From Crocinitomicaceae bacterium (GTDB lineage Bacteria; Bacteroidota; Bacteroidia; Flavobacteriales_D; Parvicellaceae): a stretch of DNA of 64,000 bases. Below the pieces are notes generated by a model. That model was not told the origin of the DNA. It made no database searches and saw only the letters and a program-made list of their open reading frames with translations. Location: contig PBNK01000013.1 in assembly GCA_002723085.1 (NCBI GenBank), positions 1-64,000 of the forward strand. The letters are read 5' to 3'. Positions 25,856 through 36,797 of the stretch are shown here, piece by piece. The translations under genes were made by a program, and so were the position numbers. The stretch's first letter is position 1, and every line of letters begins with the position of its first letter.

Positions 25856-28800
25856 TTATGCAGTTATTTTTTTCTTGCTTAAATCAACAACAGCTGGTGT
25901 AGCAATAAAAAGTGATGAATAAGTTCCTACAACAACACCTATCATTAATGCAAAAGAAAATCCTTTAATTGATTCTCCCCCAAATATAAAAATAGTCAAC
26001 AAAACTAAGAAAGTACTTAATGAAGTATTTATTGTTCTTGATAAAGTACTATTTAATGCATTGTCTATAACTGACTCCGTAGAAGATTTTTTATGTAATA
26101 TTGAATATTCTCTTATTCTATCAAAAACAACCACTGTATCATTAATAGAATACCCCACAACTGTTAAAATAGCAGCGATAAAAGCTTGATCAATCTCCAT
26201 TGAAAATGGAACAAAGTTGTATAAGATTGAAAACAAACCTAAAACAACCAAAACATCATGGAACATTGCAACTAAAGCTCCTAGACCAAATTGCCATTTT
26301 TTAAATCTAAATGCAATATAAATAAAGATGATAAACAACGAGAATATAATTGCCCACAAGGAACTTTGTTTTAACTCATCAGAGATTTGTGGATTTACAC
26401 TTCTAGAAGATTTTATTTCATACCACTCACCATTAGAAAAATCCTTATTTTGATAACCCATGTCATTAAATGACTTATGCAAAGTACTATCAACCTTTTC
26501 GTTTTTATTGTCAGCAGACGAGTTCACTAAATATTTGGTGGTAATTTCAAGATTATATTCATTATCCACAGTTTTTAATTCAGGTGAAACTAACGATCCG
26601 TCTTCATTAATAGATTTTGAAGCAATTAATTTTCTAACTTCTTCTCTATCTATCTTTTGTGAAAATTCAACTCTGTAAGTTCTTCCTCCTGTAAATTCAA
26701 CACCCCAATCAACTCCTTTAGAAAACAGTGAAGCAAGACCACCAAGTACAATCAAAGAAGAAATCACATAAAAAAGTTTTCTTTTCTTAAAGAAAGTAAT
26801 TGATGTGCCTTTAAATAAGTTTTTAGTAAACTTTCTTGAAAATGCAACCTCTTTTTTATTATCCAGCATGTAAGAAAAAATTAATCTAGTAATAAATAAA
26901 GCACTAAATAATGACGTGAAAACACCGATAATTAATGTTGTAGCAAATCCTTGAATAGGCCCAGAACCAAAATAAGCTAAAACAACAGCTGTTAAAAGAG
27001 AAGTTACATTAGCATCAATAATCGCTGAATAGGCATGTTTGTATCCATCAGCAATAGCTAACTTAACCCCTTTTCCTTTTGACAGCTCTTCCTTTACTCT
27101 TTCATAAATAAGCACATTCGCATCTACAGACATACCTATAGTTAATACCAAACCTGCAATTCCTGGTAAGGTTAGTGCTGCTCCAAGGGAAGCTAAAGTT
27201 CCTAGGATGAAAAATATATTGGCAAGTAACGCGACATTTGCAACCCAACCAGCTCTGTTATAATAAAAAATCATATAAAAAAGAACCAATGCAAAAGCAA
27301 AAACAAAAGACCATAATCCAGAATTTATATTTTCTTCACCAAGAGATGGACCTACAATAGACTCTTCAATTATATTAGCAGGAACAGGAAGCGAACCCGC
27401 TTTTAATATATTAGCTAAATCTTGCGCTTCCTCAAGTGTGAAATTTCCTGAAATTTCTGTATTTCCACCAGAAATAGCCCCTGTAGAAACTCCAGGAGCT
27501 GAATAAACAATGTCATCAAGAACAATAGCTATATTGGTTCTATTATCATATGCCTTGCCTGTCATTGTTTTCCATTTTGTTGAAGCATATTCTTTAAAAT
27601 TTAACAGCACTACTGGATCACCTTTCTGGTTATAACTTTGACTTGCTCTTCTAACACCTTCTCCGTCTATCTCAGGTTTTTTATCATCTGGAACTTCAAT
27701 TGCCATTAAAGCATATGATGGAGGAAGTGTTTTTCCATCCCACTTATTAGGATTATTTTCATCGCTTTTTTTGTTCCACAAAAATTTAACTCTATTGAAA
27801 GATGAAAATATTGCCTTTGCTTCATTAGATTTTAAATAATTATTAATAGTACTTGTGTCAGATTCTAGAGCGTATCCAATAACAGGAGGCGCTCCTACAA
27901 ACCACATGCTTTTACTTAAAATCTTATCAGATGAAAGAGCCAATGAATCTTTAATTAATTTATCAGCTTTCTTTGCTGCAATTAATGAATCGTTTTTTAA
28001 TTTATTATTTTGATAAGCTAAAGAATCTTCCTTTGTTAGTTTTGCTAAAGAATCAAGGCTTAACTCAACAAATTCAGAAATGTTATTTGTATCTTCTAAT
28101 TCGATTTTATCACCAAATACTTTATTCAGTTTTAAAAATTCATCCCTAAAATCATCATGATTAGTATGCCAAAATTCAAGACTAGCAGTAGACTGAAGTA
28201 ACTTTCTAATTCTATTTTTATCTTTTGCACCAGGCAATTCAATTTGTAATCTACCAGAAACAGGTTGCTTTTGAATATTAGGCTGGCTAACTCCAAATTT
28301 ATTGACCCTAGATTCAATAATTCTTTGTGTTTTGTCAATAGCGTCCTTGCTTAAATCTCTTAATTTCTGAATAATTTCATTGTTATCTAATTCAATTGGA
28401 AAGTCTTCTTTGTTTGCAACATTAAAATATTTCATTTTTTGATTAGGGAACATTACTTTAAAATGCTCATGAAAAAGGCCAATAAAATCATTTCCTTCTG
28501 CATCACCATAAGCTGTATTTGACTTATAGTTATTTAATGCTGCAAAATAAGGCTCTTTAAAAGATGGTTTTCTAGATTTGCCAGATAGGTTTTTAACCAA
28601 GTCATAAATAGAAACTTCTAAAGTAACACTCATACCACCCTGAAGGTCAAGCCCAAGATTTAATTCTTGATTTTTGCATTTTTGATAACTTAAACCAGTT
28701 ATCGGATAAATTGCTGAATTTGCTTTCTTTAAAAGAATTTCTTGCTCATAATGAGCAATAATTTTTTGCTTTTCCTTTTCAGATATAGCCTCACCAATTA

Positions 28801-28999
28801 TTAATTTTTCTTCATTGATATCATTCTTAAAAACAATTTCTTCATTGGGATTAGCTAACAATACAGAATCGTATTTTTTTATTGCAGCATCAGTTACATT
28901 GCTCTCAAATGAGCCTGTTACCCAAGAAAAAGACAACTGATATAAACAAGCTAAAAACAACAAAACTGTGAAAACCCAAATTGCACTTCTATTACGCAT
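25856..28999 (-). CDS. secDF: Fused protein-export membrane protein SecDF
   Basis: SecDF uses the proton gradient to pull secreted proteins from the Sec channel. It has 1047 residues, which is SecD and SecF in one chain, as usual in Bacteroidota. The SecD half has LGLDLQGGMSVTLEV (about 113-127) and the membrane part GLVLTIGMSVDANVLIYERV with the key Asp. The SecF half has VDWGVEFTGGRTYRVEF and VVGYSINDTVVVFDRIRE. Between lies the large periplasmic P1 domain, somewhat extended. Its promoter is at 29039-29069 and tatA and the exchanger gene follow. Confidence 0.96.
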   Translation of the reverse strand: MRNRSAIWVFTVLLFLACLYQLSFSWVTGSFESNVTDAAIKKYDSVLLANPNEEIVFKNDINEEKLIIGEAISEKEKQKIIAHYEQEILLKKANSAIYPITGLSYQKCKNQELNLGLDLQGGMSVTLEVSIYDLVKNLSGKSRKPSFKEPYFAALNNYKSNTAYGDAEGNDFIGLFHEHFKVMFPNQKMKYFNVANKEDFPIELDNNEIIQKLRDLSKDAIDKTQRIIESRVNKFGVSQPNIQKQPVSGRLQIELPGAKDKNRIRKLLQSTASLEFWHTNHDDFRDEFLKLNKVFGDKIELEDTNNISEFVELSLDSLAKLTKEDSLAYQNNKLKNDSLIAAKKADKLIKDSLALSSDKILSKSMWFVGAPPVIGYALESDTSTINNYLKSNEAKAIFSSFNRVKFLWNKKSDENNPNKWDGKTLPPSYALMAIEVPDDKKPEIDGEGVRRASQSYNQKGDPVVLLNFKEYASTKWKTMTGKAYDNRTNIAIVLDDIVYSAPGVSTGAISGGNTEISGNFTLEEAQDLANILKAGSLPVPANIIEESIVGPSLGEENINSGLWSFVFAFALVLFYMIFYYNRAGWVANVALLANIFFILGTLASLGAALTLPGIAGLVLTIGMSVDANVLIYERVKEELSKGKGVKLAIADGYKHAYSAIIDANVTSLLTAVVLAYFGSGPIQGFATTLIIGVFTSLFSALFITRLIFSYMLDNKKEVAFSRKFTKNLFKGTSITFFKKRKLFYVISSLIVLGGLASLFSKGVDWGVEFTGGRTYRVEFSQKIDREEVRKLIASKSINEDGSLVSPELKTVDNEYNLEITTKYLVNSSADNKNEKVDSTLHKSFNDMGYQNKDFSNGEWYEIKSSRSVNPQISDELKQSSLWAIIFSLFIIFIYIAFRFKKWQFGLGALVAMFHDVLVVLGLFSILYNFVPFSMEIDQAFIAAILTVVGYSINDTVVVFDRIREYSILHKKSSTESVIDNALNSTLSRTINTSLSTFLVLLTIFIFGGESIKGFSFALMIGVVVGTYSSLFIATPAVVDLSKKKITA

Positions 29000-29038
29000 A
29001 ATATTTTTTTATTCTAATTCAACATGAAAATAAGGGCG

Positions 29039-29069
29039 CAAATATAGAATTTCAATTGGTTATAAACAA
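29039..29069 (-). promoter_or_regulatory. secDF promoter
   Basis: On the minus strand TTG (29069-29067) is followed after 20 bases by TATATTTG (29046-29039). This fits the flavobacterial consensus well. The expected start point is near 29034, about 35 bases before the secDF ATG. Confidence 0.65.
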
Positions 29070-29196
29070 CATTATTTCAACAAGTTACCTTTATGAAAAA
29101 AATAGGGGCTAATTTAGCAATCAAATATTAACTTAATAAATTGATTTAAATCCTAATAAACAATATGTTATTTTTATCTAAAAAAAAGTATGTGAA

Positions 29197-29220
29197 GCAA
29201 CTAAGCTTTAAGATTACGTT
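29197..29220 (+). promoter_or_regulatory. Putative ECF-type promoter of the VCBS gene
   Basis: GCAAC (29197-29201), 15 bases, then CGTT (29217-29220), ending 13 bases before the ATG. The same two words with the same spacing precede the ECF sigma gene at 32972-32995. AAC and CGT are the usual core words of ECF promoters. No TAnnTTTG element lies in this upstream region. The link to the sigma factor is inferred. Confidence 0.45.
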
Positions 29221-29233
29221 TTAATTAATAAGA

Positions 29234-31477
29234 ATGAATAGTTTTTTTAAAATACTTACTATAATAATTGTTGGGTTTGGTCTTAGCAATATATATAGTC
29301 CATTTTTTTCTCAAAACTTAATCTTTAGTCAGTCTAATGACTTAATTGTTTCTAAAATGGGTGACACATTGAATAGCGCGTGGGCTGGAGGAATTAATTC
29401 TGCTCAAATATCAACCATGGATTTAAATTTTGATCAACTTGAAGATATTGTGATTTTTGATAAATCTGGAAATAAAATACTAACCTTCATTAATTCTGTT
29501 GATCATTATTATTATGATTCACAATACGAAAAATTTTTTCCTAAAATTGAGAATTGGATGCTTCTAAGAGATTATAATGGAGATGGCAAGAAAGATATTT
29601 TTCATTCTGTTTCTGGTGGAATTGGAGTTTGGAAAAATACTAGTTCAAATAATATCATTTCTTTTTCTCAAGAAATTAGCCCTTACATCCATTCTTTACA
29701 ATATAATTTTAAAAGCAATTTATATGTAAGTAAAAATGATATTCCTGATATAAACGACATTGATATGGATGGCGATTTAGATGTAGTTACATTTAGTATT
29801 TTAGGTGGGAATTTGGAATATCACCAAAACCTATCTGTTGATTCTGGATATGGGTCAGATTCGCTTATTTTTGAGCTTAAAAATGCTTGTTGGGGCCATT
29901 TTTATGAAGGTGGCCTTACAAACACTTGTTACTTATTTGACACTTGTCTAACCAATGTTAATAACCCAGAATTTCCAATAGCTAATATAAATAGACAAGA
30001 CTCAACTTTTTTAAGGCACGCAGGCTCAACTGTTCTTTCTTTAGATTTAAATAATGATAATGTGAGAGATATTTTATTAGGTGATGTGTCTTTTGCAAAT
30101 ATAGTTGCCCTATACAATGACAATAAAGGAGTTAATATGAATACATCTTTTATAAGTCAAGATACTTTATTTCCTAATAATTCTATTCCGGTAGATTTAT
30201 ATATTTATCCAGGAACATTTTATGAAGACGTTACTTTTGATGGAGTTAAAGATTTATTAGCCTCTCCAGCTACTGACAATGATACTGAAGATAAAGAAAG
30301 CGTATGGGTATATGAAAACACAGGTACAAATAGCTCACCTGTCTTTAATTTACAGTCAAAAAACATGTTCCAAAGTGAAATGTTAGATTTTGGAAAGTCA
30401 TCTTCTCCCATTTTAGTTGACCTTAACAATGATGGTCTTAAGGATTTAATGTTTGGTTACTTGGGAGAATTTGATATTAACTCTTTAAATCACTACACCT
30501 GTGCGATATCAGTATATATGAATACGGGAACTGCTGAAATTCCAAAATTTGAATGGTTAACCGATGATTATCAAAATTTATCTTCTCTAATAAACAATAT
30601 AGATCTTTTCCCAGCTATGGGTGATTTAGATAATGACGGTGATTTAGATGCCATTGTAGGAGATTATTCTGGATATTTACACTATCTCGAAAACACTTCT
30701 TCTAATTCTTCAGTTGTTAATTTAATTATGAATCAACCGCAGATGCAAGATGATCAAGGAATCCCTATCGATATAGGATATTGTGCAAAACCTGTATTAT
30801 TTGATTTGGATCAAGACAATGATTTAGACTTAGTTATTGGAGAAGCTACTGGAGTTCTTAACTATTATGAGAATATTGGCGGGGCTAATTCTCCTTTATT
30901 TAGTTTTGTTACAGACAATTTTGGAGGCATTGATGTTACTGATTGGTGGACAAATATTGGATCTAGTTCACCTTCTTTTGAATTCATAAATAATGAATTA
31001 ACATTATTTGTCGGTTCTGAAAGAGGGGCCTTATACATGTATGATAGCATTAGCAATAACCTAAATGGGAGTTTTAATCTTATTGATAGCAATGTTAGTA
31101 ATTTAATTATTGGCCCACATCTATCGCCAGCTTTAGGCTACTTAAATAACGATTCGATTATTGACATGATTGCAGGTAATAGAAGAGGAGGAGTAACATT
31201 ATTTTATGGGAGCATAGATTCAACAGTAAATGACATTCAGCACTTAAACCAAAATAAAATTGTTTTTTCTCCCAACCCTACAACTGGAATACTTTCTTGT
31301 TCGTATAAAAACCCATATACTTATAAAGTAATTAATCAACATGGGAAAATTGTTAAAAAAGGAATTTCATCCAAAGAAATTAATATAAGTAATCTTTCTG
31401 ATGGGATTTACTATATTTCTGTTATTAATGAAAAAATAAATAACACTGTAAAAATTGTCAAAATACACCAAAAATAG
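29234..31477 (+). CDS. T9SS-secreted FG-GAP/VCBS repeat protein
   Basis: This is a 747-residue predicted surface or secreted protein. The signal peptide is about 1-27. There are many FG-GAP/VCBS propeller units with Asp-rich calcium-binding loops: DYNGDGKKDIF, DIDMDGDLDVVTF, DLNNDNVRDILLGD, DLNNDGLKDLMFGY, DLDNDGDLDAIVGD and DLDQDNDLDLVIGE. The C-terminal ~74 residues are a type A T9SS sorting domain (FSPNPTTG, then KVINQHGKIVKKG, DGIYYISV). Such repeats are found in adhesins and lectin-like surface proteins. The last 23 bases overlap the downstream DCC gene. A possible ECF promoter precedes it. Confidence 0.9.
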   Translation: MNSFFKILTIIIVGFGLSNIYSPFFSQNLIFSQSNDLIVSKMGDTLNSAWAGGINSAQISTMDLNFDQLEDIVIFDKSGNKILTFINSVDHYYYDSQYEKFFPKIENWMLLRDYNGDGKKDIFHSVSGGIGVWKNTSSNNIISFSQEISPYIHSLQYNFKSNLYVSKNDIPDINDIDMDGDLDVVTFSILGGNLEYHQNLSVDSGYGSDSLIFELKNACWGHFYEGGLTNTCYLFDTCLTNVNNPEFPIANINRQDSTFLRHAGSTVLSLDLNNDNVRDILLGDVSFANIVALYNDNKGVNMNTSFISQDTLFPNNSIPVDLYIYPGTFYEDVTFDGVKDLLASPATDNDTEDKESVWVYENTGTNSSPVFNLQSKNMFQSEMLDFGKSSSPILVDLNNDGLKDLMFGYLGEFDINSLNHYTCAISVYMNTGTAEIPKFEWLTDDYQNLSSLINNIDLFPAMGDLDNDGDLDAIVGDYSGYLHYLENTSSNSSVVNLIMNQPQMQDDQGIPIDIGYCAKPVLFDLDQDNDLDLVIGEATGVLNYYENIGGANSPLFSFVTDNFGGIDVTDWWTNIGSSSPSFEFINNELTLFVGSERGALYMYDSISNNLNGSFNLIDSNVSNLIIGPHLSPALGYLNNDSIIDMIAGNRRGGVTLFYGSIDSTVNDIQHLNQNKIVFSPNPTTGILSCSYKNPYTYKVINQHGKIVKKGISSKEINISNLSDGIYYISVINEKINNTVKIVKIHQK

Positions 31478-31856
31478 TCCAACAGTAATTATTGATGGGG
31501 ATTGTGTCTTTTGCAATTACTGGGGAAACTATATTATTTTAAACGATTCTTCAAAAAGTATTTTTGTAACCTCATCTTCTTCAAAAATCGGAATAGAATT
31601 CCTTGAAAAAACTGATATAAATCCAGAAAAAACCATTTTGTTTTTATTAAATAATAAATATTATAGCTATTCTGATGCTGTAATTAAAATTGCATTAAAA
31701 TTAGGCGGTTGGCATAATGTATTTTTACTAGGATATTTGATACCAAAAAAAATCAGAAATTTCTTATATGAATATATAGCAAAAAGACGAAAAAAAATCA
31801 TGACAAATGCGTGCCATATACAAGACTTGAAAAACAGAGATAGATTTATTTCATAA
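31455..31856 (+). CDS. Thiol-disulfide oxidoreductase-like DCC family protein (DUF393)
   Basis: This is a 133-residue protein with the family mark DGDCVFCNYW (DxxCxxC) at about 14-23, and the closing part LGGWHNVFLLGYLIPKKIRN. The family is thought to be a thioredoxin-fold oxidoreductase or quinone-linked membrane-associated protein; the function is not established. The start is TTG at 31455, inside the end of the VCBS gene, giving a 23-bp overlap. No better start lies before the conserved motif. Translational coupling to a secreted protein is unusual. Confidence 0.8.
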   Translation: MSKYTKNSPTVIIDGDCVFCNYWGNYIILNDSSKSIFVTSSSSKIGIEFLEKTDINPEKTILFLLNNKYYSYSDAVIKIALKLGGWHNVFLLGYLIPKKIRNFLYEYIAKRRKKIMTNACHIQDLKNRDRFIS

Positions 31857-31857
31857 C

Positions 31858-31888
31858 AAAAAAAGCCCCATTTAAAGAGGCTTTTTTT
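31858..31888. terminator. Bidirectional terminator between DCC gene and mdh
   Basis: A 10-bp stem pairs AAAAAAAGCC (31858-31867) with GGCTTTTTTT (31879-31888) around an 11-base loop. The A and T runs allow termination from both sides. Confidence 0.8.
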
Positions 31889-31909
31889 ATTATATAGACG
31901 AATAAAGCG

Positions 31910-32839
31910 TTATATGCTCTTTAAAGCATCATTCATATTTCTTACTGCATCAGCACTTTTTTCAAAAAGCTCTTTTTCAGCATTATTAAGATTAACATCC
32001 ACAATGTTTTCCCAACCATTTTTTCCAACAACTACAGGAACACCAATACAAATATCATCTTGTCCATATTCTCCCTCAAGAAAAACAGAACAAGGAATTA
32101 TTCGCTTTTGATCATTTAAAATACTATCTACCAAAAAAGCAACTGCAGCACCAGGTGCATACCAAGCAGAAGTTCCCAACATTCCAGTCAATGTTTTTCC
32201 GCCAACCATAGTATCAGCAGCAACTTTATTCAAAGATTCACTATCCAATAGGTTTGAAACAGGAATACCATTATACGATGCTAATCTAGTAAGGGGAATC
32301 ATTGTTGTATCTCCATGACCACCAATTACCATTCCATGAATATCATTTGCGGGTTTTCCTAAAGCTAATGATAAATAAGTTCTAAACCTTGCACTATCAA
32401 GAGCTCCACCCATACCAATAATTCTATTTTTAGGCAATCCACTTTCTTTAAGAGTAAGATAAGTCATTGTATCCATAGGATTAGAAACAATAACAATAAC
32501 AGCTTCAGGAGAATGTGCTAAAACATTTTCAGTTACTGTTTTAACAATACCAGCATTAACCCCTATCAACTCTTCTCTTGTCATTCCAGGCTTTCTTGGA
32601 ATACCACTCGTAATAACGACAACATCACTTCCAGATGTTTTAGAGTAATCATTGGTACTACCAACAATTTTAGTATTAAACCCAAGAAGTGAAGAAGTTT
32701 GAGTCATATCTAATGCCTTACCTTCAGCAAAATTTTCTCTAATATCTAATAAAACTACTTCGCTAGCTATTCTTTTATATGCAATGGCGTCAGCACAAGT
32801 TGAACCAACATTACCAGCACCTATTATTGTTACTTTCAT
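31910..32839 (-). CDS. mdh: Malate dehydrogenase (LDH-like type)
   Basis: This TCA-cycle enzyme oxidises malate to oxaloacetate with NAD. It has 309 residues. The Rossmann motif is IGAGNVGSTCAD, the substrate-loop Arg residues are in SGIPRKPGMTREEL, and the catalytic His and partner Asp lie in VIGGHGDTTMIPLTR. The Arg in GIPRKPGMTR points to malate rather than lactate. It is a single gene convergent with the DCC gene and divergent from the ECF sigma gene (174 bp). Confidence 0.95.
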   Translation of the reverse strand: MKVTIIGAGNVGSTCADAIAYKRIASEVVLLDIRENFAEGKALDMTQTSSLLGFNTKIVGSTNDYSKTSGSDVVVITSGIPRKPGMTREELIGVNAGIVKTVTENVLAHSPEAVIVIVSNPMDTMTYLTLKESGLPKNRIIGMGGALDSARFRTYLSLALGKPANDIHGMVIGGHGDTTMIPLTRLASYNGIPVSNLLDSESLNKVAADTMVGGKTLTGMLGTSAWYAPGAAVAFLVDSILNDQKRIIPCSVFLEGEYGQDDICIGVPVVVGKNGWENIVDVNLNNAEKELFEKSADAVRNMNDALKSI

Positions 32840-32971
32840 GATTTTAATTTGATTTTTTTGCGAAAATATGAAAATAGAATCCTTAAAATAATTTTATGTG
32901 TTTTTTTTATTTAAATAAATGCAAAGAATATATTTATCATTGTTATTATCAAAGAACATAATTAACTTAAG

Positions 32972-32995
32972 GCAACCATTAATTTAAAAACCGTT
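32972..32995 (+). promoter_or_regulatory. Putative autoregulated ECF promoter of the sigma gene
   Basis: GGCAACC (32971-32977) and CGTTAA (32992-32997) leave 15 bases between AAC and CGT, close to the AAC-N(15-17)-CGT pattern of ECF promoters. The ATG of the sigma gene follows 18 bases after CGTT. The same GCAAC-N15-CGTT stands before the VCBS gene. No housekeeping TAnnTTTG element is seen here. ECF factors commonly control their own gene; that this is such a site is inferred. Confidence 0.5.
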
Positions 32996-33013
32996 AATAT
33001 AACGACAACTTAA

Positions 33014-33561
33014 ATGAAATTAAGCGCTAACGATATTCAAAATCTTGTTGAAAGATGTAAAAAAAATAATCGATTAGCACAAAAAGAATTATATGAATTT
33101 TACTATAGTAAAATGATGGGGGTTGCTTTAAGATACATAAATGATAGAGATGCAGCTAGTGATGTTGTTCAAGATGGATTTATTAAAGCATTTAGTAAAA
33201 TAAGTAACTATACTAGTACTGGATCATTTGAAGGCTGGCTTAGAAGAATTGTCTCCAATACAGCTATTGATCAAATAAGAAAGAAGAAAAAAGAAAGTTT
33301 TCTACAAAATGAAGAAAAGATAGAAGCTGAAGATGAAATTAAAGAAGAGAGCATTTACGAAAACATTAGTATGTCTGAGATAGTAAATGCTGTTGGAAAG
33401 TTAAGCGATGGATATCGATCTGTTTTCAATTTATATGTAATGGAAGGTTATACACATCAAGAAATTGGAGAAATTCTTGGAATCAGTACAGGCACATCAA
33501 AATCAAATTATTCAAAAGCAAAAAAGAAATTGAAATCTATTTTAATCCATAAAATTAAATC

Positions 33562-33565
<4 letters not shown>
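33014..33565 (+). CDS. ECF-type RNA polymerase sigma factor
   Basis: This is a 183-residue sigma-70 family protein with only regions 2 and 4. Region 2 (about 20-95) has FYYSKMMGVALRYINDRDAA, SDVVQDGFIKAFSKI and GWLRRIVSNTAIDQIRKKKK. Region 4 (about 122-180) has KLSDGYRSVFNLYVMEGYTH and QEIGEILGISTGTSKSNYSK, a helix-turn-helix. A charged linker lies between. The stop codon overlaps the TTG start of the next gene by 4 bp, which fits sigma/anti-sigma coupling. Its upstream region carries a matching ECF-like promoter. Confidence 0.93.

Positions 33566-36797
<3,232 letters not shown>

Follow-up and report, generated by a model that had tools for sequence, protein, structure and literature searches.

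A predicted self-regulated ECF sigma factor tied to type IX secretion cargo, and its sorting-domain partner, in a Crocinitomicaceae bacterium

The 64,000-nucleotide stretch analysed here (the window; positions 1 to 64,000 of contig PBNK01000013.1, assembly GCA_002723085.1, from a Crocinitomicaceae bacterium) carries on its plus strand a gene for an extracytoplasmic function (ECF) sigma factor, an overlapping downstream gene for a membrane-anchored partner protein and, further upstream, a gene for a secreted FG-GAP/VCBS protein with a sorting domain of the type IX secretion system (T9SS). A preliminary description had pointed to a motif, GCAAC-N15-CGTT, ahead of both the sigma and the VCBS gene, and had proposed that the sigma factor regulates itself and T9SS cargo. 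Comparative genomics establishes a predicted promoter in an autoregulatory position, its tie to the sigma gene, its enrichment ahead of genes for secreted and type B proteins, and a conserved operon with a type B partner. The reading it supports is that the sigma factor would transcribe its own operon together with a set of secreted-protein genes, chiefly T9SS cargo, the VCBS protein included.

The sigma gene, the VCBS gene and their shared motif

The sigma gene (33014-33565, plus strand) encodes a protein of 183 residues with the features of an ECF (group 4) member of the sigma-70 family, being short, containing only regions 2 and 4, and matching PF04542 (3.9e-17), PF08281 (4.3e-14) and TIGR02937 above their cut-offs. 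Its predicted promoter (32971-32995, plus strand) comprises GGCAAC as the -35 word (32971-32976), a 15-base spacer and CGTT as the -10 word (32992-32995), ending 18 bases before the ATG at 33014. This pairing of an AAC -35 with a CGT -10 word has the appearance of a self-regulated promoter, presumably recognised by the sigma protein itself. The VCBS gene (29234-31477, plus strand) encodes 747 residues that match PF13517, PF18962 and TIGR04183 above cut-off and include a T9SS type A sorting domain (31271-31459); its predicted sigma-dependent promoter, GCAAC-N15-CGTT at 29197-29220 on the same strand, ends 13 bases before the ATG at 29234.

A pattern search of both strands found two exact GCAAC-N15-CGTT copies in the window, at 29197-29220 and 32972-32995 and both on the plus strand, in agreement with the spacing and start-codon distances already described and with an earlier scan by eye that had seen no further copies. 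The statement that neither upstream region holds a TAnnTTTG element was likewise upheld, with none on the plus strand at 28580-29866 (VCBS upstream) and none on either strand at 32256-34771 (sigma upstream). A chance origin had been judged unlikely, and 100 dinucleotide shuffles of the window agree, giving a mean of 0.06 matches and in no case reaching two. Over the whole 2.43-Mb genome, the exact form has 8 matches and the reversed pattern 4; the nine-base word alone is only mildly enriched and proves little, so that the placement of the copies is what matters. Two of the exact copies (C1:35008 and C4:100588) stand 11 bases ahead of the ATGs of small proteins with a signal peptide, with genes for large secreted proteins behind them, and another (C11:1199) lies 34 bases ahead of a secreted protein. 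A relaxed form, GCAAC-N14-17-CGT with an ATG behind it, is too loose for use alone (10 matches in the same genome against 7 for the reversed control). The signal itself is, as judged from the aligned sites, aGGCAAC(C/T)-N15/16-CGT(C/T) at a near-fixed place ahead of a start codon, and the predicted consensus is to be widened to GGCAAC, a spacer of 15 or 16 bases, and CGTC or CGTT.

Conservation of the promoter and of the VCBS site

Orthologues of the sigma factor were sought in 60 related genomes, and 30 loci, drawn from this family and a number of others in the order, were fetched; GCAAC-N15/16-CGT stands just upstream of the sigma start in all 30, mostly with an extra leading G. In a second, independent collection with organism names, the site lies upstream of the orthologue in 67 of 80 loci. 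A promoter matrix built from 91 sigma promoters of other species, with this genome and all cargo genes left out, has its information nearly confined to aGGCAACC and CGT(C/T), with flanks near background and a spacer of 16 bases in 71 promoters and 15 in 20. The malate dehydrogenase gene (mdh; 31910-32839, minus strand), the divergent neighbour of the sigma gene, recurs beside it in many other genomes, and this synteny is old; since the remaining intergenic DNA is near background, the motif does not appear to have been kept merely as a neighbour of mdh. Among the seven sigma-70-family genes of the genome, only this one carries the site (score 22.6), the regions upstream of the six others scoring at most 1.7. 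The proposed self-regulation is borne out by the two orthologue counts, and the motif is, on this comparative evidence, a deeply conserved predicted autoregulatory ECF promoter.

The same matrix, blind to cargo and to this genome, ranks the VCBS gene (16.8) second of the 44 open reading frames (ORFs) of the window, after the sigma gene and well before the next (4.3). In a congener (G001), GAAGCAAC-N15-CGTT stands nine bases ahead of the ATG of the VCBS orthologue, with spacer and flanks changed; MAFFT leaves the sites of the two species unaligned, the surrounding DNA having diverged, and they correspond by their distance to the start codon. Both results support the VCBS gene as a target of this sigma factor, as had been predicted. 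The pair could still be an after-the-fact coincidence in which the sigma copy alone functions, given that the motif was defined from these two copies, that the VCBS copy reads GAAGCAACT and not AAGGCAACC, and that the exact form is so modestly enriched across the genome. Such a coincidence is highly improbable in view of the second rank assigned by a matrix from other species' sigma genes, the retention of the VCBS site in the congener amid diverged upstream DNA, and the secreted proteins that follow other sites (see below).

Directly behind the VCBS gene, a DCC1-like thiol oxidoreductase gene (31455-31856, plus strand; PF04134, 2.3e-13) overlaps it by 23 bp and, given this overlap, is probably part of the same transcript. 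Between the convergent DCC and mdh genes, a hairpin found by eye (AAAAAGCC ... GGCTTTTT; 31858-31886) could end both transcripts; it is absent from the list of a terminator scan whose loop limit was 8.

Some further observations concern the sigma family. Cytophagales relatives (L234, L238, L242, L248) have CAAC-N16-CGT lacking the leading G and a partner lacking the sorting domain, possibly an earlier form of the system. In a quick tree, the sigma factors of L177, L208, L216, L224, L225, L244 and L203 group with Crocinitomicaceae or other Flavobacteriales; the titles of these records (e.g., Chryseobacterium gleum, Kuenenia, Polynucleobacter, Glaciecola amylolytica) misfit their sigma factors, and the records are probably mislabelled. 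One genome (G024; L027, L170) has two sigma copies and a partner gene that stops after 95 residues, just past the membrane span, which may be a real disruption or an assembly artefact.

Sites ahead of secreted proteins

Sites common to this genome and the congener are found at the sigma gene, the VCBS gene, a cargo gene with a CHU_C (type B sorting) domain (C25 here, C26 in the congener), a two-gene cargo operon (C1 and C31) and a gene for a cytoplasmic protein (C21 and C54). Across the family (f1), the motif followed by an ATG is found 66 times and the reversed pattern 20 times, a tally that includes sigma genes and counts some sites with two ATGs. Of the 40 non-sigma sites that were read in detail, 24 lead into an ORF of at least 60 residues; 18 of these ORFs begin like a signal-peptide protein, and 10 have a complete type B domain at their end, several further ORFs being cut by contig ends; the corresponding counts at 41 control sites of a permuted motif are 8, 1 and 0 (Fisher's test, 2e-4 for ORFs, 3e-6 for signal peptides and 5e-4 for type B domains). 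This contrast establishes that the predicted sites precede secreted proteins across the family, often ones with a T9SS type B sorting domain. Within this genome, scores above 12 are reached by 3 of the 18 CHU_C genes that could be tested (two of them with a 17-base spacer) and by 0 of 42 other window ORFs (p 0.024, weak by itself); two more CHU_C genes follow sites that the pattern search picked up (C4:9623, C1:35008), and the site at C24:21918 precedes a gene for type A cargo. When the CHU_C domains of the genome are ordered by likeness to that of the partner protein, the site-bearing genes rank 1, 4, 5, 10 and 15 of 21, which is only suggestive.

A comparison of a different kind is offered by a genus of the same family (g4) that has no sigma orthologue (best matches 33-37% identical, or none) and keeps the C25 cargo orthologue at 54-71% identity. 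The site precedes this orthologue in 0 of 6 g4 loci and in 17 of 24 other loci (p 0.003), one of the 24 (G034) being a half-complete genome in which a paralogue alone is seen; where read, the few matches of the motif in genomes of g4 (G026, G036) fall inside coding frames. Together with the enrichment for signal peptides and CHU_C domains over the permuted control, this sustains the proposed tie between the sigma factor and T9SS cargo. It also bears on whether the promoter, though real, might be read by a different ECF sigma factor or by several overlapping ones, the VCBS gene then being no specific target: AAC and CGT words are often common to ECF factors, and the genome has further sigma-70-family genes. 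We consider this very unlikely, because the site is confined to this one sigma gene among the seven, because g4 retains other ECF genes and yet has no site at the cargo orthologue, and because site and sigma orthologue co-occur across many genomes.

Several loci within the candidate regulon merit description. Two sites 157 bp apart (C1:34851 and C1:35008; region G000:C1:34700-49000) stand ahead of the cargo operon; the counterpart in the congener (L258) has the first site only, then a different small secreted protein and then the orthologous giant cargo gene, and it looks as if the small first gene had been exchanged downstream of a conserved promoter. At C21:33156 (region G000:C21:32500-35500; L084 in the congener), GCAAC-N16-CGTT lies 14 bases before the gene for a 292-residue protein, SirB1/transglutaminase-like by eye, with two small genes behind it that resemble a SiaB/SiaC kinase-partner pair; its product is the only non-secreted protein among the conserved candidate targets. 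In many genomes (L175-L246), a large secreted cargo-like gene lies directly 3' of the sigma and partner genes; three of these that are complete have a terminal type B domain (L181, L184, L235), and two appear to be of type A (L208, L240).

The partner protein and a possible link to secretion

The partner gene (33562-34851, plus strand) starts with TTG, overlaps the stop codon of the sigma gene by four bases and encodes 429 residues in an architecture that recurs in orthologous loci. A putative cytoplasmic N-terminal segment (residues 1-48; 33562-33705) with helices at 9-22 and 27-38 and a Trp29 conserved to 97% is the candidate sigma-binding part. It is followed by a single hydrophobic, presumably membrane-spanning segment (about residues 49-66; 33706-33759), preceded by RRKKIKK and found at the same place in 27 orthologues, and by a disordered linker of about 109 residues (33760-34086), whose predicted local distance difference test (pLDDT) values are mostly below 50 and whose length would suffice to cross the periplasm. 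Two Ig/PKD-like domains (residues 176-331; 34087-34554; PKD_4 match, pLDDT above 80) lead to a T9SS type B C-terminal sorting domain (CHU_C; residues 339-425; 34576-34836), identified in the genome scan and above the cut-offs of both PF13585 (3.7e-16; 59.4 bits against 27) and TIGR04131 (5.9e-12; 45.6 against 35). The structure model as a whole has a mean pLDDT of 75.6, mostly above 80 from residue 180 on, and a structure search with it returned only generic Ig/PKD adhesin folds. In an alignment of 60 partners, Trp29, Cys185, Cys321, Trp388 and Gly390 are invariant or nearly so, and the sorting domain, in which W388 and G390 are invariant, holds the best-conserved residues. The two cysteines, in the presumed periplasmic region (34087-34554) and invariant in all 60, may form a disulfide or a redox switch.

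In the first set, a type B domain recognisable by eye closes each of the 28 complete partners; profiles detect the domain in the gene after sigma in 64 of the 80 named loci, with site and domain both present in 58, and Pfam alone assigns CHU_C to 40 of the 60 aligned partners. The GCAAC form and the domain are both missing from more distant relatives in the Cytophagales and Bacteroidales, and a subclade (L231, L237, L239, L249) combines the promoter site with a short partner, about 240 residues long, that lacks the sorting domain, both groupings coming from a quick tree only. The promoter word and the sorting-domain partner mostly appear to travel together.

As read from its sequence, the partner has the layout of a membrane anti-sigma factor, namely a shared operon, a cytoplasmic N-terminus, one span and a periplasmic part. 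It has no cleavable N-terminal signal peptide, 48 hydrophilic residues preceding its sole hydrophobic segment, and because a cytoplasmic stretch and a membrane anchor take the place of such a peptide, it does not appear to be ordinary T9SS cargo. We infer that it is probably the cognate anti-sigma factor, which would bind and inhibit the sigma factor. Taken jointly, the promoter, the sigma factor, the cargo regulon and the anti-sigma role of the partner form a reading that we regard as likely.

A number of observations weigh against it. Most of the approximately 110 T9SS cargo genes of the genome carry no site; the predicted regulon is therefore a sub-regulon, and the proposal that T9SS cargo is what the sigma factor controls, upheld by the enrichment, holds for a subset of cargo. 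In keeping with this, the matrix scores of 38 sampled cargo upstream regions and 44 window ORFs show no overall shift (Mann-Whitney p 0.71), because few cargo genes carry the site and the distribution has a high tail instead. One conserved target, that at C21:33156, is cytoplasmic, and 7 of the 24 cargo orthologues outside g4 have no good site. The absence of the sigma gene from g4, being confined to one clade, counts as one evolutionary event. As to the partner, searches against Pfam and NCBIfam matched its N-terminus to no known anti-sigma family (class I, FecR or zinc-binding), the protein as a whole giving only CHU_C and PKD in Pfam and only TIGR04131 in NCBIfam.

The domain order of the partner suggests how it might act. 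Its N-terminal 48 residues would hold the sigma factor in the cytoplasm, and the long linker would allow the PKD and sorting domains to extend to the outer-membrane side with the anchor still in the inner membrane. There, the sorting domain could compete with genuine cargo for a place where type B proteins dock, either a PorP/SprF-like barrel or the SprA translocon; type B proteins are known to dock on PorP-like barrels independently of PorV (PMC9143113). An exporter with free capacity would engage the tethered domain, the keeper would be disturbed or cut, and the freed sigma factor would have cargo made; a queue of cargo would occupy the docking site and leave the sigma factor held. The net wiring would be a secretion-coupled negative feedback on cargo supply, and release by free capacity and retention by a queue would be sensible because the sigma factor makes more cargo. 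Taken on its own, docking competition is a tentative proposal that we hold to be possible, with the balance slightly against it, and the polarity of the signal is a guess. Beside the operon in the window, where the neighbours are mdh and gyrB, inspection showed no PorP-like gene, and no systematic search was made elsewhere.

With the opposite polarity, a periplasmic queue of cargo would trigger release of the sigma factor, as in a stress relay of the RseA type. RseA, with which the partner shares its membrane-anchored layout, is activated by unassembled outer-membrane protein tails. Such a relay is improbable here, since the predicted regulon would supply more cargo and worsen the queue, and since a non-exhaustive search of the sites yielded no recognisable gene for a chaperone, a protease or the T9SS machine. 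It is also conceivable, if on balance unlikely, that the sigma factor acts on cargo while the partner senses something other than secretion, such as envelope stress, a ligand or, through its cysteines, redox state, the sorting domain serving as an adhesion-type fold or anchor. The invariance of Cys185 and Cys321, the commonness of PKD/Ig folds as ligand or spacer domains and the subclade with short partners speak for this; scores above the curated type B cut-offs, the location of the best-conserved residues in the sorting domain itself and a regulon made up in large part of cargo with the same domain argue for a link to secretion instead.

Comparable elements are known from other systems. The PorY-PorX-SigP pathway of Porphyromonas gingivalis likewise ties an ECF sigma factor to the T9SS, and sigP is self-regulated (PMC4800418); however, SigP answers to the response regulator PorX and has the genes of the T9SS machine as its targets, whereas the predicted targets here are cargo, and the motif proposed for SigP, C(T)AAA... 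(PMC4800418), does not resemble GGCAAC-N15/16-CGTY. In promoter motif and in targets, the present system does not fit the SigP type. PorA is a sorting-domain protein that also acts upstream of an ECF sigma factor, but it is a separate surface protein restricted to Porphyromonas (PMC7712824), whereas the sorting domain here belongs to a membrane partner encoded beside the sigma gene. Pairs of ECF sigma and class I anti-sigma factors share the single-pass membrane partner, the overlapping operon and the autoregulated promoter (PMC7406223), and differ in that no known anti-sigma domain was detected in the present partner; because only 6% of Bacteroidetes ECF factors have a class I anti-sigma neighbour, other anti-sigma classes are to be expected in this phylum (PMC7406223). 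The last domain of the partner belongs to the same sorting-domain family as those of T9SS type B proteins (PMC9143113), which the partner does not otherwise resemble, having a cytoplasmic stretch and an anchor in place of a cleavable signal peptide. In its proposed logic, the system resembles the pairing of FlgM and sigma-28 in flagella, where export competence releases a sigma factor that makes export cargo. FlgM is a soluble anti-sigma factor that is itself exported, whereas the partner, being membrane-anchored, would need pulling or cutting. In the open-licence literature, we found no report of an anti-sigma factor with a T9SS sorting domain, nor of this promoter; the ECF group may have been named earlier.

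The known regulator, the PorXY-SigP pathway, acts on the machine and has been worked out in Porphyromonas. On the question of how Bacteroidota balance T9SS cargo supply against export, the present analysis supplies a defined promoter, a sigma factor, a predicted regulon and a cargo-tagged partner, present in many Flavobacteriales including the cultured Lishizhenia tianjinensis and Cryomorpha ignava, and candidate regulon genes can be listed from DNA alone in unannotated genomes. Within this, the partner gene with its cargo-like type B sorting domain is a larger finding than the shared motif: it may point to a widespread Flavobacteriales system, conceivable though not yet a favoured conclusion, in which an anti-sigma factor would bear the sorting tag of its sigma factor's cargo and the exporter would report its free capacity through a tethered decoy substrate.

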